NCBI RefSeq assembly: GCF_000220565.1
Contig: NZ_AFPM01000335.1
Span: 1-64,000 of the forward strand
From: Oceanicola sp. S124
GTDB lineage: Bacteria; Pseudomonadota; Alphaproteobacteria; Rhodobacterales; Rhodobacteraceae
Direction of reading: 5' to 3'
Length of the DNA: 64,000 nucleotides
Shown here: positions 18,451 through 28,564 of the stretch, piece after piece
Layout of the letters: every line of letters begins with the position of its first letter
Numbering within the stretch: position 1 is the stretch's first letter
Notes under the pieces: model-generated
Seen by the model: only the letters and a program-made list of their open reading frames with translations
What the model was told of the DNA's origin: nothing
Database searches by the model: none
Position numbers and translations under genes: made by a program

Positions 18451-19374
18451 TCAGTCCCGGGCGCGGAAGGGCTGGCCCAGCGACAGCGGCACATCCAGCG
18501 CCATGCGGGTGCGGTTCTGCGAGATCAGCACCAGCACGAGGATGGTCGCCAGGTAGGGCGCCGCCGAAAGCGCCTCGGAGGGCACCGGAAGGCCAAGGAT
18601 CTGGCCGTGCAGCTGCAGGATCGTCACGCCGCCGAAGAGCACCGCACCGGCCAGCACCCGCACCGGGCGCCAGGTGGCGAAGACCACCAGCGACAGGGCG
18701 ATCCAGCCGCGCCCGGCGGTCATGTTCTCGACCCAGATGCCGGTATAGGCCAGCGACAGGTAGCCCCCCGCCAGGCCGGCCAGGGCGCCGCCCCAGAGGA
18801 CGGCCAGGAAGCGGATGCGCAGCACGTCGTAGCCAAGGGCATGGGCATTGCCCGGGGCCTCGCCCACCACCCGCAGCACCAGCCCGGCCCGGGTCCGGTT
18901 GAGCCACCACCAGGTGGCCGGCACCAGCGCCAGCGCCAGGTAGACCATCGCGTCGAAGCGGAACAGCAGCGGCCCCGCCACCGGCAGCTCGGCCAGCGGC
19001 CCGAGGGCCAGCGGCGACAGCGCCTCGATCGGGCGCGAGCCGAAGCCCGCCCCCAGCGTCGCCGAGACGCCCGAGCCGAAGATCGCCAGTGCCAGCCCGG
19101 CGGCATATTGGTTGGTCAGGAAGATCAGCGTCAGCACGGCGAAGAGACCCGCCGCCAGAGCGCCCGCCAGCGCCGCCACGGCAAAGGCCGCCAGCAGCCC
19201 CCCGCCCTGCACCGCGACGAGGAACCCCGCCGCCGCGCCGATCAGCATCATGCCCTCGATCCCGAGGTTGAGGACGCCGGATTTCTCGACCACCAGCTCT
19301 CCCAGGGCGGCGAGCAGCAGCGGCGTGGCAGCGATGACGGTGCCGGTGAAGATGGCGATGAGAAGCGGACTCAT
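18451..19374 (-). CDS. BMP-type ABC importer permease (second subunit)
   Basis: 307 residues with about 8-9 membrane segments and the family segments EKSGVLNLGIEGMMLIGA near the N terminus and NAHALGYDVLRIRFLAVLWGG, the cytoplasmic coupling region. It belongs to the branched-chain/sugar-type permease superfamily and matches the nucleoside/purine (BMP) subgroup, partner of the permease at 19371-20457. ATG 19374 overlaps the stop of that gene in ATGA. Because of the frameshift in the upstream gene, the raw frame here stays open to 20457 as one 668-residue reading frame. That fusion is not believed. Confidence 0.92.
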   Translation of the reverse strand: MSPLLIAIFTGTVIAATPLLLAALGELVVEKSGVLNLGIEGMMLIGAAAGFLVAVQGGGLLAAFAVAALAGALAAGLFAVLTLIFLTNQYAAGLALAIFGSGVSATLGAGFGSRPIEALSPLALGPLAELPVAGPLLFRFDAMVYLALALVPATWWWLNRTRAGLVLRVVGEAPGNAHALGYDVLRIRFLAVLWGGALAGLAGGYLSLAYTGIWVENMTAGRGWIALSLVVFATWRPVRVLAGAVLFGGVTILQLHGQILGLPVPSEALSAAPYLATILVLVLISQNRTRMALDVPLSLGQPFRARD

Positions 19375-20457
19375 GCGGGCCTCCCCCTGCGGCGGGCGCC
19401 GGTGTGGCGGACCAGCCGGTAGCTGACGAAGAACTCGGAGGCCAGCAGCAGGAACAGCAGCAGGCCCTGGAAGACGCGGGTGATCGGCGAGGGAATGCCA
19501 TGGGTCATCTGCACGCTCTCGCCGCCGACATAGGTCAGGGCCAGGAACAGCCCTGCCAGCAGGATCCCCGGCGCCGAGAGGCGGCCGACGAAGGCGACGA
19601 TGATCGCCGCGAAGCCATAGCCCGGCGAGATCACTGCCGAAAGCTGGCCGAGCGGCCCCGCCGCCTCGTAGAACCCGGCGACCCCGGCGGCGGCGCCCCC
19701 GGTCAGCAGGCCGATCCAGATCGCGCCCCGCTCGGAAAAGCCGGCGTAGCGCGCCGCGCGTGGTGCCGCGCCGCCGACCGAGAGGCGATAGCCCGCAAAG
19801 CTGCGCCCGGTGAAGACCCACAGCGCCGCGAGCGCCAGCAGCGCAACGAAGACCGAGGCGGTGACGCGATACATCGGGTCCAGCGGCTGCAACATGCCCG
19901 CCGGTGGCAGCAGCGCGGTCTGGGGGAAGTTGTAGCCGTTCGGGTCGCGCCACGGGCCGCGCACCAGGAAGGACAGGGAACAGCCCGGCGATATAGGTCA
20001 GCATCAGGGTGACGAGGATCTCGTTGGTATTGGCCCGGGTGCGCAGCAGCGCCGCGATGGCGGCCCAGGCCGCGCCCCCCGCCAGCCCGGCGGCGCACAT
20101 AAGCGGCAGCAGTACCGGGTGCAGCGCCGCGGGGGCGAACAGCCCCACCCCGGTCGCCGCAATGGCGCCCATGGTCAGCTGCCCCTCGGCACCGATGTTC
20201 CAGACATTGGCCCGGAAGCCGACCGCCAGCCCGGCGGCGATGAGGATCAGCGGCACCGCCTTCACCAGCAGCTCGGTCACGCCGTAAAGGCTCGAGACCG
20301 GCCGGATGAAGAAGGCGTGCAGGGTCTCGAGTGGCGGCAGGCCGAGCGCGGCGAACAGCGCCCCGCCACAGAGCAGCGTCAGCGCGACGGCGACCAGCGG
20401 GGCCAGCAGGTTGGCGAGGCCTGAGACGCTGCGGCGGGGTTCGATGCGATATCTCAT
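19371..20457 (-). pseudogene. BMP-type ABC importer permease (first subunit), frame broken by one base
   Basis: The first 150 or so residues read normally from ATG 20457 (LVKAVPLILIAAGLAVGFRA, NIGAEGQLTMGAI, TRANTNEILVTLMLTYIAGLF). The frame is then lost and continues perfectly in another frame as LSFLVRGPWRDPNGYNFPQT and onward to the stop at 19371. The break is a single extra base in the GGG at 19976-19978 (TTCCCTG where TTCCTG restores the frame). The corrected product is about 361 residues with about 9-10 membrane helices, normal for this permease. Either a sequencing error or a recent loss of the importer. Partners: ATPase upstream, second permease downstream. Confidence 0.85.
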
Positions 20458-20460
20458 GGC

Positions 20461-21972
20461 TTACTCCGCTGCCTCGGGGGCCCGCACGCCGGTCATCAGC
20501 GCGCCGAGGCGGTCCTTGGTGGCCTCGTCTCGCGCCAAGGGATGCGACAGGCGCCCGTCCGAGAGCACATGGATCCGGTCGCAGATCTCGATCAGCTCGT
20601 CGAGTTCCTCGGAGAAGACCAGCACCGCGGCCCCCTGCCGCGACAGGTCGATCAGGCGCTGGCGGATGAAGGCGGCGGCGCCGACGTCGACGCCCCAGGT
20701 GGGCTGGGCGACGATCAGCACCTGCGGTGCCAGCGCCAGCTCGCGGCCCAGGATGAATTTCTGCAGGTTGCCCCCGGACAATGACGAGGCCAGCGCCCCC
20801 GGCCCGTCGGCCTTGACCGAGAACCCCCCGATGATCCCGGCGGCGCGGCGGCGGGCCTCGCCGAAGCGCACCATGCCGTGCCGCACCAGCCCCGAGGCAT
20901 AGCCGGTCAGCACTGTATTGGCGGTCAGCGAATGGCCCGGAACGGCACCGCGCCCCAGCCGTTCCTCGGGCACATAGGCCATCCCGGCGCGGCGGCGCCG
21001 GTCGGGGCGCATCTGTCCGACGGGGGCGCCGTCCAGCAGCAGGCAGCCGGCAGGCGACAGGGCCTCGCCGCTGAGGCAGGCGGCCAGTTCGGACTGGCCA
21101 TTCCCGGACACACCGGCGATGCCGACCACCTCTCCGCCATGCAGGTCCAGCGAGATGTCGTGCAACCGGCGCCCGGCCGGCCCGAGCGGCGCCCCCGTGA
21201 GCGCCCGCACCGACAGGCGCGGCGCCGGCGAGGGCATGCTGGCGGGGCGTTCGGGGATCGGCAGGTCGCGGCCCACCATCATCACCGCAAGTTCGTGGCT
21301 GGTGGCCTGGCGCGGGTCGACCTTGCCCGTCACCCGTCCGCCGCGCAGCACCGTGGCCGCGTGGCAGAGCGCCCGCACCTCGTCCAGCTTGTGCGAGATG
21401 TAGATGATCGAGCAGCCCTCGGCGGCGATCCGGCGCAGCACGGTGAACAGCTGTTCGACCGCCTGCGGCGCCAGCACCGAGGTCGGCTCGTCCAGGATCA
21501 GCAGGCGGGGGGCGCGCATCAGGCAGCGCAGGATTTCCAGCTGCTGGCGCTCGCCCATCGACAGGTCCATGACCGTGCGGTCGGGATCCACCGCCAGCCC
21601 GTAGCGCGCCGCCGTCTCGCGGATGCGCAGGCGCAGGGCGGGCAGGTCCAGGCGGCCTTCCAGGCAGAGCGCCACGTTCTCGGCCACCGAGACTGTCTCG
21701 AACAGCGAGAAGTGCTGGTAGACCATTTCGATGCCCAGGGCGCGGGACTGGCCGGGACTGTGCGCCTCAAGCAGCGTGCCGTCATAGCGGATTTCGCCCG
21801 CATCGGGACTGGTGACGCCGTAGATGATCTTCATCAGCGTCGACTTGCCCGCCCCGTTCTCGCCGAGGATGGCGTGGATCTCTCCCCCGGCGACCGAGAG
21901 AGAGATATCGTCATTGGCCACCACGCCGGGATAGGCCTTGGAGATACCGGCCAGTTGCAACCTTGCGCTCAT
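20461..21972 (-). CDS. BMP-type ABC importer ATPase, two nucleotide-binding domains
   Basis: 503 residues carrying two fused ABC domains. First: Walker A GENGAGKST, signature LSMGERQQLE, Walker B RLLILDEPTSVL. Second: degenerate Walker A GVSGNGQSE, signature SLSGGNLQK, and a Walker B region ending VAQPTWGVDV in place of an acidic DEPT. This asymmetric layout is typical of sugar/nucleoside-type importers (RbsA, YufO/NupO relatives). ATG 21972 has GGAAAGGA about 8 nt upstream; an earlier in-frame ATG (22017) overlaps the binding-protein gene. It energises the permeases at 18451-20457. Confidence 0.93.
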   Translation of the reverse strand: MSARLQLAGISKAYPGVVANDDISLSVAGGEIHAILGENGAGKSTLMKIIYGVTSPDAGEIRYDGTLLEAHSPGQSRALGIEMVYQHFSLFETVSVAENVALCLEGRLDLPALRLRIRETAARYGLAVDPDRTVMDLSMGERQQLEILRCLMRAPRLLILDEPTSVLAPQAVEQLFTVLRRIAAEGCSIIYISHKLDEVRALCHAATVLRGGRVTGKVDPRQATSHELAVMMVGRDLPIPERPASMPSPAPRLSVRALTGAPLGPAGRRLHDISLDLHGGEVVGIAGVSGNGQSELAACLSGEALSPAGCLLLDGAPVGQMRPDRRRRAGMAYVPEERLGRGAVPGHSLTANTVLTGYASGLVRHGMVRFGEARRRAAGIIGGFSVKADGPGALASSLSGGNLQKFILGRELALAPQVLIVAQPTWGVDVGAAAFIRQRLIDLSRQGAAVLVFSEELDELIEICDRIHVLSDGRLSHPLARDEATKDRLGALMTGVRAPEAAE

Positions 21973-22013
21973 GCAGGGATCCTTTCCGCCGGCATCTCCG
22001 GTCTTCGCGTGGA

Positions 22014-23096
22014 TCAACCGAGCTGGCCGATCATCCCGGCGGCCAGCCAGTCGATGCCGCGCACCGCGCCATCGGCCATGACCTCGCCCTCGGGCACGAT
22101 CACGTTGCCCTGGTTGTCCGAGATCGGTCCGGCGTAGGGCTGCACCTCGCCAGCACCGATGGCGACGACCAGGGCGTCAAGCTCGGCGCGGACCTCGGCC
22201 GGAATGGCCTCGTGGAAGGGCGCCATGGTGACGACACCGGCGGCCAGCCCGTCCCAGGCCTCTTCGGTTTCCCAGGCGCCGTCCAGCACCGCGCGGGCGG
22301 CACCGACATAGTCCTTGGACCAGTCCAGCACCACCGAGGTCAGCTGGCTGTCGGGCCCGAACGAGATCAGGTCGGAGGCGTAACCCACCGAGTAGATGCC
22401 CTGCTCCTGCGCGGTCTGCACCGCGACGCCGGTGTCGGTCATGCCAAGCAGCACGTCGGCGCCCTGGGCGATCAGGGCGGCGGCGGCCTCCTTCTCCTTG
22501 CCCGGGTCGAACCACGAGTTCAGGAAGACCACGTTGCAGGTGATATCCGGGTTCACCGACTGCGCGCCCAGCAGGAAGGCATTGCCGGGGCCGACGATGT
22601 CGGGGATCGGGAAGCCGCCGATGAAGCCCAGCTTGCCGGTCTTGCTCATGTGGCCTGCCGCGACGCCGGCGACATACATGCCCTCGTAGTACTTGGCCTC
22701 GAAGGTCGCCAGGTTGTCGAAGTGGACGATGCCCGAGCAATGCTCCCAGGCCACGTCGGGGAAGCGGGGGGCCACCTTCTGCATCGGTGCGCCGAGCGAG
22801 AAGGAGGTGCCGAAGACCAGCCCGTGGCCGGTGGCGGCCATCTCGCGGAAGACGCGCTCGGCGTCCTGCGGCAGGAAGGTATTGTCGACGACGGTCACTT
22901 CGACGCGGTCGCCGAACTCGGCCTTGATCGCCTCGATGCCAAGGGCGTGCTGCTTGGCCCAGCCGATTTCGGCGGCGGGCGAGGCATTCACCTGGCCGAT
23001 CTTCAGGACACCCTCGGCGCTGGCAAGGCGCGGCAGGGCCAGGGTGCCCGCAAGGGCAGCGGAGCCCTGCAGCAGCGTGCGGCGGTTGATCGTCAT
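22014..23096 (-). CDS. BMP-family solute-binding protein (purine/nucleoside type)
   Basis: 360 residues with a twin-arginine-like signal peptide (NRRTLLQGSAALAGTLALP, ending ASA-EG) and no lipobox Cys. Family landmarks are KIGQVNASPAAEIGWAKQ, HGLVFGTSFS, KTGKLGFIGGFPIPDI and DVLLGMTDTG. BMP/Med proteins bind purine nucleosides (PnrA, BmpA, NupN types); alphaproteobacterial relatives are often annotated as nucleoside or purine binders. ATG 23096 is preceded by CAGGAGAG. Together with the divergent demethylase and guanine deaminase genes this points to a purine base or nucleoside, probably methylated; that is inference. Confidence 0.9.
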   Translation of the reverse strand: MTINRRTLLQGSAALAGTLALPRLASAEGVLKIGQVNASPAAEIGWAKQHALGIEAIKAEFGDRVEVTVVDNTFLPQDAERVFREMAATGHGLVFGTSFSLGAPMQKVAPRFPDVAWEHCSGIVHFDNLATFEAKYYEGMYVAGVAAGHMSKTGKLGFIGGFPIPDIVGPGNAFLLGAQSVNPDITCNVVFLNSWFDPGKEKEAAAALIAQGADVLLGMTDTGVAVQTAQEQGIYSVGYASDLISFGPDSQLTSVVLDWSKDYVGAARAVLDGAWETEEAWDGLAAGVVTMAPFHEAIPAEVRAELDALVVAIGAGEVQPYAGPISDNQGNVIVPEGEVMADGAVRGIDWLAAGMIGQLG

Positions 23097-23144
23097 TTTC
23101 ACTCTCCTGTTGCTGACCCGGGGGGAGCCGGGCGTCTGGTCGTG

Positions 23145-23159
23145 CCGCCTGTCAGGCGG
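23145..23159. promoter_or_regulatory. small hairpin at the end of the GntR gene
   Basis: CCGCCT-GTC-AGGCGG (6-bp stem, 3-nt loop) overlapping the stop codon of the GntR gene, just before the binding-protein gene. May moderate read-through from regulator to transporter genes. Confidence 0.35.
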
Positions 23160-23850
23160 TCTGGGAATGGCTGTCCAGCCAGGGGGCAAGCGCCCTGGCG
23201 AGGCTCTCTGGTTCGGTGACCGGGGCCTCGACGTCGTAGCCCCGGGCGATGGACTGGTAATGGTTCTGGATCAGCGCCAGCGCCTCGGGCACACGGGCCG
23301 CGCGCAGGTGCTCCAGCAGGTCGCGGTGATCGTCGTTCAGGCGGCAGCGGTGGTAATCGCGGTTGACGTAGAGCTGGCGCAGCAGCTGCATCCGGCGCAC
23401 CAGCCGGGCGTGGATCTCCTGCACGGCGCGGTTGCCCGACAGCGCGATCATGTGGTCATGGAAGACGGGGCCGATGATATCCGCGTTCTCGTTGTCGCCC
23501 GCCGCCATGCTGGCCTCGACCTCGTCGACATTGGCCTGCATCACGTCCCACTCGCGCCCCGAAAGCCGCTGCATCAACTGGAAGGCCACGCCCTGTTCCA
23601 GCGCGCTGAGCGCCTCGAACAGCTCCTGCGCCTCGCGGTGCCCAAGCTGTGCGACCGAGGCGCCCCGGTTGACCCGCGTCTCGACCAGCCCGCTTTCCCC
23701 GACGATGATCAGCGCCTGCTTGATCACCGCGCGGGAGGTGCCCCAGACCTCGGCCAGCTCGCGTTCCCCCAGCTTGGTGCCGGGGGGCAACGCCTGGGCG
23801 ACGATGGCCGCGATCACCGCCTCGGCGATCTGTCTGGGTCGGTCTGTCAT
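23152..23850 (-). CDS. GntR-family regulator, FCD subfamily
   Basis: 232 residues. The N-terminal winged helix-turn-helix contains IAEAVIAAIVAQALPPGTKL, GERELAEVWGTSRAVIKQAL and LVETRVNRGASV. The C-terminal all-helical FCD effector domain has the usual metal/ligand residues spread through DHRDLLEHLRA and HDHMIALSGN. ATG 23850 is used since the typical domain starts there; the frame is open further upstream without a better start. It lies between the importer (same strand, downstream) and the divergent ndm-like genes, so it probably represses both from the 23851-23995 region, responding to a purine-derived ligand. Confidence 0.88.
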   Translation of the reverse strand: MTDRPRQIAEAVIAAIVAQALPPGTKLGERELAEVWGTSRAVIKQALIIVGESGLVETRVNRGASVAQLGHREAQELFEALSALEQGVAFQLMQRLSGREWDVMQANVDEVEASMAAGDNENADIIGPVFHDHMIALSGNRAVQEIHARLVRRMQLLRQLYVNRDYHRCRLNDDHRDLLEHLRAARVPEALALIQNHYQSIARGYDVEAPVTEPESLARALAPWLDSHSQTA

Positions 23851-23934
23851 CGGGTCGCTCTGCCTATTGCCTGTGCATCCGTATCGATCCGACAAAGCGA
23901 GCGGCTTTCTCCTCTTGTCAAGCCAGAGCAAGCC

Positions 23935-23968
23935 TTGTCATAGCTAAATTGAAGAATTGCTATGCAAT
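23935..23968 (+). promoter_or_regulatory. promoter with overlapping palindrome for the ndm-like operon
   Basis: A -35-like TTGTCA (23935-23940), 17-nt spacer and -10-like TGCTAT (23958-23963). The -10 overlaps the perfect 5-3-5 palindrome ATTGC-TAT-GCAAT (23956-23968). It lies about 30 bp upstream of the oxygenase start and in the gap shared with the GntR gene, a plausible repressor site. Confidence 0.45.
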
Positions 23969-23995
23969 CTGCTGAAATGATGAACGGAGCGCTAG

Positions 23996-24853
23996 GTGAG
24001 CCCCCAGACACAGCCCGACCCCTTCATGCGGGACCAGTGGTATCCGGTCTCTGCCCTGCAGGATATCGCAGCCGGCACGCCACGGGTGACGAAACTCTTC
24101 GGCCAGCGGGTGAGCTACCGCCGCGAGGCCGATGGTGCCTGTTCCGCAAGCACCGAGGACCGCGCCCTGCCCGTCCTGCAGCGATACGGCTGCCTCTGGA
24201 CTTCGCTCGGCACCCCCGGCGAGTTGTTCGAGATTCCCGAATACACCGAGGCCGACCGGCGCAACGTGGCTGCCGGCACCGTCGCCGTGCAGGTCTCGGC
24301 GCAGCGCGGCATCGAGAACTTCCTCGACATGGGGCACTTTCCCTATGTCCATACCGGCATCCTCGGCGCCCTGCCCCATACGGAGGTCAAGGAGTACAAC
24401 GTCGAAGAGACCCCCGACGGGCGCGAGATCATCGCCACCGAATGCCTGTTCTACCAGCCCATGGCCTCGACCGTCTCGACCTCGGGCGCGGATGTCGAAT
24501 ACATCTACCGGGTGCCGCATCCGACCTGCTCGGTGCTCTACAAGTCCTCGCCGCTGGACGAGAAGCGGCTGGATGTGATCGCCCTCTTCGGCCAGCCCAC
24601 GGGCGAGGAGAGCTTTCGCGGCCACATGGTGCTGTCGATCCTCGATGACGTGAACACCGACGATTTCATCAGCTACTTCCAGCTGCACATCTTCGGCCAG
24701 GACAAGCCGATCCTGGAAAACCAGATGCCCAAGCGGCTGCCGCTGGATCCCCGGGCGGAAACGCCGATCCGGGCGGACAAGACCTCGATCATGTATCGCC
24801 GCTGGCTGACGCGCCATGGCGCGACCTACGGCGTGATCCCGGCACAGGGCTGA
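23996..24853 (+). CDS. ndmC: NdmC-like N-demethylase oxygenase lacking a Rieske domain
   Basis: 285 residues, a Rieske-type non-haem iron oxygenase catalytic domain. The mononuclear-iron motif N108-x2-D111-x2-H114-x4-H119 (ENFLDMGHFPYVH) is intact, and QDKPILENQMPK and ADKTSIMYRRWL match the C terminus of the NdmA/B/C purine demethylases. The usual N-terminal Rieske domain is missing: the chain passes from the first strands to RYGCLWTSLG with no CxH or CxxH. NdmC of Pseudomonas putida CBB5, the N7-demethylase, is built the same way and takes electrons from a Rieske domain on NdmD. GTG 23996 has GGAG 6-7 nt upstream; ATG 24026 is an alternative. I could not place the third (Asp/Glu) iron ligand with certainty. 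Confidence 0.85.
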   Translation: MSPQTQPDPFMRDQWYPVSALQDIAAGTPRVTKLFGQRVSYRREADGACSASTEDRALPVLQRYGCLWTSLGTPGELFEIPEYTEADRRNVAAGTVAVQVSAQRGIENFLDMGHFPYVHTGILGALPHTEVKEYNVEETPDGREIIATECLFYQPMASTVSTSGADVEYIYRVPHPTCSVLYKSSPLDEKRLDVIALFGQPTGEESFRGHMVLSILDDVNTDDFISYFQLHIFGQDKPILENQMPKRLPLDPRAETPIRADKTSIMYRRWLTRHGATYGVIPAQG

Positions 24854-24868
24854 GGAAGGACCAAGCCA

Positions 24869-26554
24869 ATGAGCGATATGACCTGGGTCCCCGTGGCCAA
24901 TGCATCGGACCTGGCGCCGCGCCATGTCTTCCAGGGCCGCCTTCTGGGGCAGGAGCTGGCGATTTGGCGGGCCGACGACGGCAATGTCAACGTCTGGGAA
25001 AACCGCTGCCTGCACAGGGGCGTGCGCCTGTCGATCGGCGTCAACACCGGCAGCGAGCTGGTCTGCCAGTACCACGGCTGGCGCTATGCAAACCGCAATG
25101 CCGGCTGCACCTACATCCCCGCCCATCCTGCCGACGCCCCGCCGCACACCATCTGCAACCGGACCTGGCCGGCGCTGGAACAGGACGGGCTGATCTGGAC
25201 CCATTTCGCCCCCGTCGATCCACCGCGCCCCGAAAGCCTCGGCGCCGGGGCCCTGGCCCTGCGGCCCCAGCCCGTCGCCGCCGCGCCCGAACTGGCGCGC
25301 GCGGTGCTGGCCGGGCTGTCACCCGAGGGCTTCGGACCGCTCGGGCAGGATCTGGTCGCCAGCGGCCCCGCGGGCCGCCTGCGCCTGATGGTGCAGGCCG
25401 CCGATGCCGGCCGCGCGGTGCTGCGCGGGCTGGTGCTGTCGGACGAGGCGCCCCTGCCCCTGCTGCGCCGCCTCTCGCTGGTCCTGCGGCTGGCGCGGGA
25501 CGAGATCGAGCGCCGCGCCGCGACCCTGCCCGTGCCCGCGCCGATCCCGCACCGCTCGGAACGGGTTGCGCCCGAACTGGCCGAGATGCCCGAGATGGTC
25601 TCGGGCCCCGCCCGCATCCGGGTGCGCGTGGCGAAGAAGCAGATCGTCGGAGAGGACATCGTCGCACTGGAGCTGGCCGGGCTGCGCGGCACCCTGCCCG
25701 CCTCCCAGCCCGGCGCCCATATCGACGTCGCGCTGCCCAACGGGCTGCTGCGCCAGTATTCGCTGGTCAATGCCCCGGGCGAGACCGACCGCTACGTCAT
25801 CGGCATCAAGCGCGAGGCCCAAAGCACCGGCGGCTCTGCCGCGATCCACGACAGCCTGGCCGAGGGCGACCTGCTGGCGATCTCCGAGCCGCGCAACAAC
25901 TTCACCCTGCGCCGCGACGCCGAAGAGACCGTGCTGATCGCCGGGGGCATCGGCGTGACGCCCCTGCTGTCCATGGCCGCCGCGCTGCGGGACGAGGGGC
26001 TGCCCTTCACCCTGCACTACTTCGCCGCCAGTGCCGAGACCCTCGCCTTCGGCGAGCGGCTGGCCCTGCTGGGCGAGCGGATGGTGCCCTACCTCGGGCT
26101 GGACGCGGCCCAGACCACCCTGGCGCTGCAAGGCATCCTGAAGGGTCCTGGCGCCGACCGTCAGGTCTATGTCTGCGGCCCCGCCCCGATGCTGGACGCC
26201 GCCCGCGCCACGGCCGCCGAAGCGGGCTGGCCCGAGGCCGCCGTCCACTTCGAGTATTTCGCCAACACCCGCGAGATTGACACCTCGTCGAGCTTCCGCA
26301 TCGAACTGGCGCGTTCGGCCCTGTCGCTGGAGGTGCCCGCCGGGCGCTCGATCCTCTCGGTGCTGCAAGAGGCCGGGGTGGCGCCGCCCTCGTCCTGCAG
26401 CCAGGGCGCCTGCGGCACCTGCATGGTGCGCCTGCTGGAGGGCGAGCCGGATCATCAGGACGTCTACCTGACCGGCGCCGAGAAGGCCGCCGGAGAGAAG
26501 ATCCTGACCTGCGTCAGCCGCGCCAAGTCCGACCGCCTCATCCTGGATCTCTGA
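24869..26554 (+). CDS. ndmD: NdmD-like reductase with extra N-terminal Rieske domain
   Basis: 561 residues with three modules. Residues about 5-95: a Rieske [2Fe-2S] domain with C47-x-H49 and C66-x2-H69 (NRCLHRGV, LVCQYHGW). About 245-460: flavin/NAD(P)H reductase with RQYSLVNAP for flavin and IAGGIGVTPLLSM for nicotinamide. About 475-561: plant-type [2Fe-2S] ferredoxin with C-x4-C-x2-C (SCSQGACGTCM) and a fourth Cys in ILTCVS. Ordinary VanB/PDR reductases have only the last two modules; the added Rieske domain is the hallmark of NdmD (588 residues in CBB5). It supplies electrons from NADH to the Rieske-less oxygenase encoded just upstream (15-nt gap, GGAAGGA ribosome site). Confidence 0.9.
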   Translation: MSDMTWVPVANASDLAPRHVFQGRLLGQELAIWRADDGNVNVWENRCLHRGVRLSIGVNTGSELVCQYHGWRYANRNAGCTYIPAHPADAPPHTICNRTWPALEQDGLIWTHFAPVDPPRPESLGAGALALRPQPVAAAPELARAVLAGLSPEGFGPLGQDLVASGPAGRLRLMVQAADAGRAVLRGLVLSDEAPLPLLRRLSLVLRLARDEIERRAATLPVPAPIPHRSERVAPELAEMPEMVSGPARIRVRVAKKQIVGEDIVALELAGLRGTLPASQPGAHIDVALPNGLLRQYSLVNAPGETDRYVIGIKREAQSTGGSAAIHDSLAEGDLLAISEPRNNFTLRRDAEETVLIAGGIGVTPLLSMAAALRDEGLPFTLHYFAASAETLAFGERLALLGERMVPYLGLDAAQTTLALQGILKGPGADRQVYVCGPAPMLDAARATAAEAGWPEAAVHFEYFANTREIDTSSSFRIELARSALSLEVPAGRSILSVLQEAGVAPPSSCSQGACGTCMVRLLEGEPDHQDVYLTGAEKAAGEKILTCVSRAKSDRLILDL

Positions 26555-26557
26555 GCC

Positions 26558-27196
26558 ATGCCAACACTTTACGACTTCGACCTCTCGGCGGATTGCTACA
26601 AGGTGCGCCTGCTGGCGGCGATCCTCGGCATCCCCTATGACCGCCATAACGTGGATTTCTTCCCCGGGATGAAGCACCTCTCGCCCGCCTTCCTGGCGGT
26701 GAACCCGCTCGGCACCCTGCCGGTCTGGGACGAAGGCGACCTGCGGCTCTGCTCGGCCCATGCAATCCTCGTCTACCTCGCCGAACGCCACGCGCCGGGC
26801 GGGCCCTGGCTGCCGCGCGACCCCGCACTGGCGGGCGAGGTGCAGCACTGGCTGGGCTTTGCCGAGGGTCTCGCGACCTCGGCAGGCGCGGCGCGGCTGG
26901 CCGCCGGCATGGAGTTCGACCTCGATCTCGCGGCCGCGCAGGCCCGGGCGCATCAGCTCTTCGAGCGGATGGACGAACACCTGTGGTTCCGCGAGCGCGA
27001 GGGCGGCAACTGGCTGTGCCGCACCCTCCAGCCAACCCTGGCCGAGATCGCCTGCTTCCCCGACGTGATGCTTTCCGAAGAGGGCGGCATCGCGCGCGAG
27101 GACTACCCCGCCCTGCGCCGCTGGAGCGACCGCGTGAAGCGCATCCCGGGTTTCGAGGTGATGCCCGGCATTTTCCCTGCAAAGATCGGCGCCTGA
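26558..27196 (+). CDS. ndmE: NdmE-like glutathione S-transferase-fold protein
   Basis: 212 residues: an N-terminal thioredoxin-like domain (TLYDFDLSADCYKVRLLAAI, NPLGTLPVWDEG with the cis-Pro) and a helical C-terminal GST domain (about 90-205). In caffeine degraders NdmE is a GST homologue needed to assemble the NdmC-NdmD complex instead of acting as a conjugating enzyme. The position directly after the ndmC/ndmD-like pair, 3 nt from the reductase stop, supports that structural role. On sequence alone it would be called just a GST-family protein. Confidence 0.82.
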   Translation: MPTLYDFDLSADCYKVRLLAAILGIPYDRHNVDFFPGMKHLSPAFLAVNPLGTLPVWDEGDLRLCSAHAILVYLAERHAPGGPWLPRDPALAGEVQHWLGFAEGLATSAGAARLAAGMEFDLDLAAAQARAHQLFERMDEHLWFREREGGNWLCRTLQPTLAEIACFPDVMLSEEGGIAREDYPALRRWSDRVKRIPGFEVMPGIFPAKIGA

Positions 27197-27199
27197 CGC

Positions 27200-28564
27200 A
27201 TGAAGACCCAAGATTTCGCCCGTGTCGTCACGGGCACCGCCTTCCACACCCCTGCCCGGGATCGTCTGGAGGTGCTGGAAGACCACGCCTTCGTGCTGGA
27301 CACCTCGGGCACCATAACCCGCCTGTTGCCCCCCGATCACCCCGAGCGCCCCGCCCTGATCGAGGCCGCCCGCCAGCGGGGCGTGCTGAGCGAACTGCCC
27401 GAGGGCAGCGTCCTGATCCCCGGCCTGATCGACCTGCATATCCACGCACCCCAATGGCCCCAGCTTGGCAAGGCGCTGGATGCGCCGCTGGAGGCCTGGC
27501 TGCAAAAGTACACCTTCCCGATGGAGGCGCGCTTTGCCGATACTGCCTTCGCCGCCGAGGTCTACGACGAGATGGTCGCCACCCTGCTGGCCCATGGCAC
27601 GACGACGGCGGTCTACTTCGGCTCGGTCGAGGTGGCGCCCAACCTCGTTCTCGCCGAGGCCTGCCTGCGCCACGGCCAGCGGGCGCTGATCGGCAAGGTC
27701 GCCATGGACGATCCCGACAACTGCCCCCCCTACTACCGTGACGCCAGTGCCGAGGAGGGGCTGGCCGAGACGCGCCGTTTCGTCACCGAGTTGCGCGCAC
27801 TGGCCGGCGACGACCCGCTGGTGCTGCCCGTCATCACGCCGCGCTTCATCCCCTCGTGCTCGGACGAGCTGCTGGCGGGTCTGGGCGCCATGGCGCGCGA
27901 GCTGGATTGCCATGTCCAGACCCATTGCTCGGAAAGCGACTGGGAGGTCGGCCATGTCGCCGCCCGCCTCGGCCAGACCGATTGCGAGGCGCTCTCGGGG
28001 CACGGTCTGCTGACCGACCGCACGGTGCTGGCACATTCGAACTTCGTCACCGGGGGCGACATGGAGATCATCTGCGCCCATGGCTCTGCCGTGGCCCATT
28101 GCCCGATGTCCAACGCCTATTTCGCCAATGCGGTCTTCCCCCTGCGCGCCGCAATCGAGCGGGGCGTGAAGGTGGGGCTGGGCACCGATATCTCGGGCGG
28201 GTTCAGCCCCTCGCTGTTTGATGCGGCGCGCCACGCGCTGATGGCCTCGCGCCACGCCGCCTCGGGCACCGATCCCGCGCTGCCGCCCGAGACGCGCGGC
28301 CCCGGCACGCGGCCGCTCGGCACCGTCGAGACCTTCTGGCTGGCAACCGCCTCGGGCGGGGAAGCGCTGCGACTGCCCATCGGGCAATTCCGCGAGGGCT
28401 ACCGCTTTGATGCACTGGCGATTGCGACCAATGCCCCCGGCTCGAGCCTGCGCTACTACCCCGCGCTGGACCCGCTGGAAGAGCTGTTCGAGAAACTCGT
28501 GCTCACCGCCGACCGGGGCGCCATCGCAGAGGTCTGGGTCGACGGGAAACGCCGCCTCGACTGA
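27200..28564 (+). CDS. guaD: guanine deaminase
   Basis: 454 residues of the amidohydrolase superfamily. Zinc-site and substrate segments are those of GuaD: PGLIDLHIHAPQWPQLG (HxH), QTHCSESDWEV (His), AHCPMSNAYFAN and GLGTDISGG (catalytic Asp). It hydrolyses guanine to xanthine and ammonia in the cytoplasm. ATG 27200 is 3 nt after the GST-like gene, the last of four coupled genes. Its presence behind an N-demethylase suggests either 7-methylguanine to guanine to xanthine, or deamination first to 7-methylxanthine, the known NdmCDE substrate. No xanthine dehydrogenase is in the window. Confidence 0.9.
   Translation: MKTQDFARVVTGTAFHTPARDRLEVLEDHAFVLDTSGTITRLLPPDHPERPALIEAARQRGVLSELPEGSVLIPGLIDLHIHAPQWPQLGKALDAPLEAWLQKYTFPMEARFADTAFAAEVYDEMVATLLAHGTTTAVYFGSVEVAPNLVLAEACLRHGQRALIGKVAMDDPDNCPPYYRDASAEEGLAETRRFVTELRALAGDDPLVLPVITPRFIPSCSDELLAGLGAMARELDCHVQTHCSESDWEVGHVAARLGQTDCEALSGHGLLTDRTVLAHSNFVTGGDMEIICAHGSAVAHCPMSNAYFANAVFPLRAAIERGVKVGLGTDISGGFSPSLFDAARHALMASRHAASGTDPALPPETRGPGTRPLGTVETFWLATASGGEALRLPIGQFREGYRFDALAIATNAPGSSLRYYPALDPLEELFEKLVLTADRGAIAEVWVDGKRRLD

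Follow-up and report, generated by a model that had tools for sequence, protein, structure and literature searches.

A four-gene operon of Oceanicola sp. S124 couples an NdmCDE-like oxygenase system to a distinct guanine deaminase: a candidate locus for methylguanine catabolism

In this work, we present a computational analysis of a four-gene operon of the marine bacterium Oceanicola sp. S124 (Rhodobacteraceae), in which genes for an oxygenase, a reductase and a glutathione S-transferase (GST)-fold protein, resembling ndmC, ndmD and ndmE of caffeine-degrading Pseudomonas, are followed by a gene for guanine deaminase (GuaD). The operon lies in the first 64,000 nucleotides of contig NZ_AFPM01000335.1 (assembly GCF_000220565.1), a stretch called here the window, and belongs to a genome of 4.65 Mb that is 91.66% complete. 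An earlier note, made from the letters alone, had described these genes as coupled and suggested that they serve methylpurine scavenging. Its observation is confirmed, as all four open reading frames (ORF1-ORF4, Table 1) run on the same strand in the order given, with intergenic gaps of 15, 3 and 3 nt; its interpretation is partly supported and is a good hypothesis with comparative support. The four-gene operon stood, but the note missed a divergent GntR regulator and a BMP-type ATP-binding cassette (ABC) transporter, which together span 18451-23931 (-) and travel with the operon in many relatives.

Table 1. Operon genes and divergent features, in window positions
Feature	Position	Strand	Length	Basis or remark
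ORF1, NdmC-like non-heme iron oxygenase, catalytic domain only	23996..24853	+	285 aa	VanA_C match, fold model
ORF2, NdmD-like reductase with N-terminal Rieske domain (CLH...CQYH)	24869..26554	+	561 aa	Pfam
ORF3, NdmE-like GST-fold protein	26558..27196	+	212 aa	Pfam GST_N
ORF4, guanine deaminase, subfamily apart from housekeeping GuaD	27200..28564	+	454 aa	Pfam Amidohydro_1, NCBIfam
Operator-like palindrome ATTGCTATGCAATC (consensus ATTGNTATNCAATC)	23956..23969	.	14 nt	between the divergent units
GntR/FCD-family regulator, divergent	23152..23931	-		Pfam; many relatives have a homologue at this position
BMP/PnrA-like substrate-binding protein of ABC transporter	22014..23189	-		Pfam
ABC transporter ATPase, two ABC domains	20461..22017	-		Pfam
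ABC permease 1, frame broken near 19978-19985 in the assembly	19407..20457	-		tblastn with P. antarcticus permease
ABC permease 2	18451..19374	-		Pfam and tblastn

Pfam and NCBIfam profile searches agree with the domain content described earlier for the four proteins. ORF1 matches VanA_C, with KshA_C appearing weakly and below cut-off, gives no Pfam match to a Rieske domain, and contains the motif ENFLDMGHFPYVH and D236, its putative metal ligands by analogy with other Rieske oxygenases. ORF2 carries a Rieske domain (residues 5-87), the NAD_binding_1 reductase core and a C-terminal plant-type [2Fe-2S] ferredoxin domain, Fer2 (481-553), an arrangement of domains also seen in the NdmD-like protein encoded by a caffeine-type Pseudomonas putida plasmid cluster. 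The claimed NdmC-NdmD-NdmE order and architecture is borne out. Identity of ORF1, ORF2 and ORF3 to the caffeine-type set is 44%, 36% and 52% in P. putida MT178 (measured on this strain and not on CBB5), and 46%, 40% and 52% in Paraburkholderia caffeinilytica. Among solved structures, ORF3 comes closest to ordinary GSTs, which is hardly informative. A quick tree with 144 rows, none of them a non-purine oxygenase, places ORF1 on the NdmC side of a branch with 99% support (Shimodaira-Hasegawa-like approximate likelihood ratio test, SH-aLRT), away from NdmA, NdmB and HpxD, and on a different branch from the NdmCs of caffeine and gammaproteobacterial loci. Judged by architecture and kinship, ORF1-3 form an NdmCDE-like module, but one whose line of descent within the family is not that of the caffeine enzymes.

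The fourth protein passes the NCBIfam guanine deaminase model TIGR02967 with 390 bits (cut-off 375.4) and, like human GDA and E. coli GuaD, it keeps the invariant residues H80, H82, Q85, R215, F216, H242, E245, H279 and D330, which presumably bind zinc and recognise guanine, as in the human enzyme. It was rejected as the housekeeping enzyme, since a separate housekeeping GuaD (495.9 bits, 31% identical to ORF4) is encoded elsewhere in the genome; as a rough indication of scale, five stretches of the genome in all match the model at E<=0.001. Unlike the housekeeping form, ORF4 falls on the single branch (100% SH-aLRT) of 22 operon-type proteins, apart from 24 housekeeping proteins, and its subfamily has loops altered at 245-249 and 307-315; 17 of the 22 are encoded in a locus with ndmC. 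Rows L111, L112, L120 and L211 were dropped from the GuaD sets (L and G numbers denote loci and genomes), and a second GuaD tree additionally leaves out L072, L213 and the 8-oxoguanine type and retains just 8 housekeeping proteins. On a megaplasmid of Niallia taxi (L217, 4209-8362), the same GuaD type adjoins an NCS2-like permease and a full-length VanA_C Rieske oxygenase, which makes a separate oxygenase-deaminase pairing.

The link between guanine deaminase and ndmC, which the earlier note had taken from this one locus, turned out to be far from chance. Among 40 genomes (our own, G000, and 39 relatives), 23 have the housekeeping GuaD; three (G000, G016, G013) have the operon type, each together with an ndmC homologue, which in G013 is not adjacent. 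In 394 genomes of the family, our own included, an ndmC homologue was found in 30 (E<=1e-40), operon-type GuaD in 10 (E<=1e-90, with up to four GuaD candidates scored per genome) and both in 9 (Fisher p=2.4e-10, kinship ignored). The two genes are on the same strand and within 6 kb in six of the ten genomes (G000, G091, G161, G210, G266, G372), and on different contigs in G078, G347 and G423, in the first of which GuaD adjoins an NdmE-like GST. The exception is G353, having operon-type GuaD without ndmC; a supposed GuaD fusion protein there was dropped as merely an upstream open frame, judged by eye.

At the level of loci, a deaminase-like amidohydrolase occurs in 14 of the best 80 genome loci, kept from at least 529 confirmed relatives and leaning to window-like sequences; ten of the 14 are operon-type GuaD. 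With plasmid and chosen loci included, such an enzyme is seen in 28 of 110 loci, a count raised by five loci (L160, L161, L162, L164, L165) whose genomes were picked for having GuaD. Besides the window itself, plasmids account for 9 of these 110, L023-L107 for 85 and a set of 20 extra stretches for 15; L080 and L171 are the same contig. The 80-bit thresholds were fixed after the data had been seen, L021 and L022 were dropped as the same as L028 and L087, and either L162 or L163 was dropped where both cover one gene. Eight loci lack ndmC in the ORF listing, probably because an overlapping frame won, and are represented in the oxygenase tree.

The partnership also recurs with different gene orders. 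The order ndmCDE-GuaD beside a divergent transporter is found in Pseudooceanicola, Xinfangfangia, a Rhizobiaceae bacterium and Mesorhizobium, and ndmCDE-ABC-permease-permease-BMP-GuaD in Granulosicoccaceae. In other members of the window's family and in Rhizobium plasmids, the transporter and GuaD accompany NdmC, a GST and a Rieske protein that stands by itself. In R. etli, Qingshengfaniella and others, 8-oxoguanine-deaminase-like enzymes below the family cut-off take the place of GuaD, two further 8-oxoguanine deaminases above cut-off are found at L163 and L035, and in the actinomycete Nocardioides immobilis a different GuaD (476.5 bits, cut-off 351) abuts ndmC. Mapped onto the ndmC tree, the GuaD label changes at least 10 times, a figure raised by loci that hold a pair of ndmC genes (20 rows for 17 loci). 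Family-wide co-occurrence together with changing gene orders led us to reject guaD as a chance neighbour; judged from these distributions, the association is non-random and GuaD would be a dedicated partner.

No deaminase was detected at four caffeine-type loci, nor at the three gammaproteobacterial loci L014-L016. The caffeine-type loci were recognised by a relative of NdmA, compared over 206 residues to the solved protein: P. putida MT178 (92% identity), P. caffeinilytica (81%), Komagataeibacter nataicola (74%) and Cupriavidus EM10 (51%), the last being the least certain of the four. Lack of a deaminase is what is expected if caffeine clusters start from xanthine rings and GuaD loci from guanine rings. 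A caffeine cluster was rejected for the window as well: in agreement with the earlier note, which had seen no caffeine genes, a VanA_C search of the genome at its 91.66% completeness found no ndmA or ndmB orthologue, returning ORF1, one weak match and one full-length oxygenase only 31-32% identical to NdmA, NdmB and HpxD.

Several architectures of related loci were noticed beside these. A free-standing Rieske protein of about 213-220 aa lies near NdmC and GST at L017, L018, L019, L165, L176-L179, L215 and L216, with no NdmD-like reductase seen within these loci. In Sinorhizobium meliloti, Mesorhizobium and Aminobacter (L013, L048, L052, L058 and others), a tandem NdmC-like pair shares one NdmD, and the first and second copies form separate tree branches, which suggests two methyl positions or two substrates. 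An XDH-like (xanthine dehydrogenase) gene near ndmCDE in S. meliloti was dropped as purine evidence, as no XDH model reached cut-off. In Devosia (L071, L074, L076, L081 and others), ndmCDE sits in a conserved neighbourhood, in which neither the BMP transporter nor a deaminase was detected. Rhizobium grahamii (L214, 584-10347) has a single run of genes in which ndmC and a BMP transporter are joined by three amidohydrolases: GuaD, an 8-oxoguanine-deaminase-like enzyme and one of an adenosine-deaminase/chlorohydrolase-like kind.

Between the divergent units lies the palindrome of Table 1. Its consensus ATTGNTATNCAATC matches the genome exactly at this single place and, with 1 mismatch, at a second one (G000:C257:8929-8942, L221); the reversed pattern, run as a control, had one match, and 0.03 sites are expected in the window. 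Allowing up to one mismatch, 26 of 110 loci have the palindrome ahead of ndmC or the BMP gene, compared with four sites elsewhere in 2.03 Mb; the consensus derives from these very sequences and was fixed after they had been viewed, so the count is descriptive. This set of 110 is made without L023-L027 and with all 20 extra stretches, some of them without ndmC. Many GuaD-free loci share the palindrome, which hints at a common inducer. A BMP-type transporter is found on the P. caffeinilytica stretch as well. One or other of the formaldehyde genes frmA and fghA (glutathione-dependent formaldehyde dehydrogenase and S-formylglutathione hydrolase) occurs at 13 of the best 80 genome loci, and both accompany each of the four caffeine-type loci, as would suit a demethylase releasing formaldehyde.

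Turnover of RNA and DNA steadily yields 7-methylguanine. The reading we prefer, to which we give about an even chance, is that the locus would be a catabolic module for N-methylated guanine, most likely for 7-methylguanine of this origin; the substrate, the methyl position and the order of the two steps are what we infer from the gene set. The GntR regulator would sense the compound or its product and control both divergent units through the palindrome, and the transporter, by its family and co-conservation, would import the base or nucleoside. The dedicated guanine deaminase would convert 7-methylguanine to 7-methylxanthine. The NdmD-like protein would then relay electrons from NADH, by way of flavin, its plant-type [2Fe-2S] cluster and its Rieske cluster, to the mononuclear iron in the NdmC-like oxygenase. 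The NdmE-like GST would hold the complex together, as has been proposed for P. putida NdmCDE (PMC4408171). The N-methyl group would be hydroxylated and lost as formaldehyde, and the resulting xanthine would be taken by xanthine dehydrogenase. The electron path, the hydroxylation and the loss of formaldehyde are drawn from the domain set and from the published P. putida NdmCDE (PMC4408171). We prefer deamination as the first step because the housekeeping GuaD already serves free guanine, a second GuaD being best explained by a methylated substrate, and because 7-methylxanthine is the known substrate of NdmCDE (PMC4408171). An XDH subunit gene is represented in the genome by complementary halves on separate contigs, one covering model positions 2-406 and the other 426-758, neither of which reaches cut-off; we read them as a single gene that the assembly has cut.

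Several observations in this and the following three paragraphs weigh against the methylguanine proposal, and some of them feed rival explanations. The palindrome is present in just four of the seven alphaproteobacterial ndmCDE-GuaD loci (the window, L028, L029, L051), missing from L011, L030 and L031 and from every Granulosicoccaceae locus, and frmA and fghA were detected at none of the GuaD-bearing loci. Subfamily marks of the operon-type GuaD (W248, YFANAVFPL) occur also in GuaDs of Niallia and Aerococcus with no ndmC in reach; in the second GuaD tree these Firmicute proteins sit on the operon-type branch, and the loop motifs were dropped as proof of a methylated substrate since the Firmicute enzymes share them. 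At L035, L106 and L163, the 8-oxoguanine deaminases cluster with those that adjoin a housekeeping GuaD in relatives, and may be ordinary enzymes. Bacterial GuaD is reported to reject 1- and 9-methylguanine (PMC11651626), which leaves 7-methylguanine open.

No deaminase is seen at 82 of the 110 ndmC loci, some of them Sinorhizobium and Mesorhizobium loci that have the operator of the window, which counts in the same direction; their hosts may encode the deaminase elsewhere, or one of the rival readings may apply to them. The first of these is that mixed purines are imported and handled separately, NdmCDE acting on 7-methylxanthine and GuaD on guanine, so that the two share a locus and not a substrate. 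It draws on the known activity of NdmCDE, on the many ndmCDE loci with the same regulator site and transporter and no deaminase, and on the ordinary guanine-binding residues retained by ORF4; yet the genome already has a housekeeping GuaD, the four caffeine-type clusters, expected to treat methylxanthines, show no deaminase, and separate deaminase families adjoin ndmC in several lineages. We consider this explanation unlikely, although to be taken seriously.

Specificity for the N7 position is the next point to be weighed. ORF1 differs from the caffeine and gammaproteobacterial NdmC clade at positions 113, 117, 128, 175, 208 and 238, all of them conserved to 80% or more within both groups (6 caffeine/gamma rows, 23 window-side rows), and because of these six differences N7 specificity of ORF1 is not assured and the exact substrate is not transferable from the caffeine enzyme. 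The same module could then act on another N-methylated amino-purine, such as 1-methylguanine, N2-methylated guanine, or methylated 8-oxoguanine or adenine, with the same pathway logic and a different methyl position. Two active-site changes suffice to shift NdmA from N1 to N3 (PMC8055839), and the tandem NdmC subunits or several amidohydrolases (as in R. grahamii) of relatives suggest several methyl positions or substrates, but ORF1 stands on the NdmC (N7) side of the tree, not with NdmA (N1) or NdmB (N3), and another amino-purine of this kind as the substrate strikes us as improbable.

The earlier note had proposed a structure check. The AlphaFold2 (AF2) model of ORF1 (predicted local distance difference test, pLDDT, 88.6; predicted template modelling score, pTM, 0.89) shares its fold with NdmA bound to caffeine (Z 23.7, root-mean-square deviation (rmsd) 2.9, 258 residues), but the closest solved structures are SxtT (Z 28.9, rmsd 2.4, 268 residues) and GxtA (Z 28.6), with O-demethylases following NdmA and no NdmC structure among the matches listed. 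Such neighbours, of which SxtT and GxtA belong to the saxitoxin pathway, would suit an oxygenase acting on a non-purine N- or O-methyl compound, the link with GuaD then reflecting a guanidine- or pterin-like ring. Aligned identity of ORF1 to SxtT and GxtA is, however, 23-25%, versus 44-46% to NdmC of caffeine clusters; the NdmE and NdmD partners are kept, and the BMP transporter and purine deaminases are nearby. The identities thus seem to speak against grouping the oxygenase with a non-purine Rieske family, and a non-purine substrate appears very improbable to us.

Comparison with known systems places the locus as follows. Like NdmCDE of P. putida CBB5 (PMC4408171), the window has a same-order trio of a Rieske-less oxygenase, a Rieske-bearing reductase and a GST-fold partner; unlike that system, it has the BMP-type ABC transporter and not an NCS2 permease, and a guanine deaminase. 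SxtT, GxtA, NdmA and NdmB, whose catalytic-domain fold the model of ORF1 is predicted to share, carry their own Rieske domain, whereas that of the window sits on the reductase. Sinorhizobium and Mesorhizobium ndmCDE loci have the same module, many also with the GntR-side palindrome and the transporter, but most of those examined are without GuaD and many have two tandem NdmC subunits; the loci of Mesorhizobium sp. AR02, M. loti CJ3sym and Mesorhizobium sp. L-8-3 do include GuaD, like the window. A plasmid of clinical Klebsiella pneumoniae (L016, 7740-20822) bears ndmB-like, ndmC, ndmD and ndmE genes, a 2-oxoglutarate (2OG)-oxygenase and a purine permease among insertion sequences.

The earlier note knew of no described route of this kind in this group of bacteria, and this held in part. 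In the accessible parts of the open-access literature (including PMC10380055 and PMC11446756), with subscription papers mostly outside, we found neither a bacterial 7-methylguanine route nor a guanine-deaminase-linked N-demethylase, which is weak evidence of absence. Homologues of ndmCDE, on the other hand, have already been reported as of unknown function from 18 organisms, mostly Sinorhizobium and Mesorhizobium, and also from Janthinobacterium and Klebsiella (Summers 2013, via PMC4408171). The partnership with the deaminase is what looks new.

As for the remaining neighbours, the real start of the GntR regulator is probably an inner ATG. The P. antarcticus permease used as tblastn query matches permease 1 of the window in two frames, its own gene being in one frame, and the split at 19978-19985 (-) is either a sequencing error or a sign of a broken transporter. 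Ten flanking ORFs between 10.8 and 34 kb, among them TRAP, Tct, zinc and peptide transport, an FMN dehydrogenase and an Amidohydro_2 protein, show no evident purine link.

Taken more broadly, the recurrence of this partnership may point to a widespread bacterial pathway family, not described so far, which would scavenge methylated guanine, chiefly 7-methylguanine from tRNA, rRNA, mRNA caps and DNA repair, by a split Rieske N-demethylase, with the Rieske domain on the reductase or free-standing, and by deaminases of the guanine or 8-oxoguanine type. On this view, the caffeine N7-demethylase would be an offshoot of a more ancient RNA-waste pathway. We hold this wider reading tentatively, at somewhat less than an even chance. 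If true, the locus would supply a bacterial route of 7-methylguanine breakdown, suggest a role for the numerous orphan ndmCDE clusters of marine, soil and nodule bacteria, and offer an evolutionary source for the caffeine N7-demethylase.

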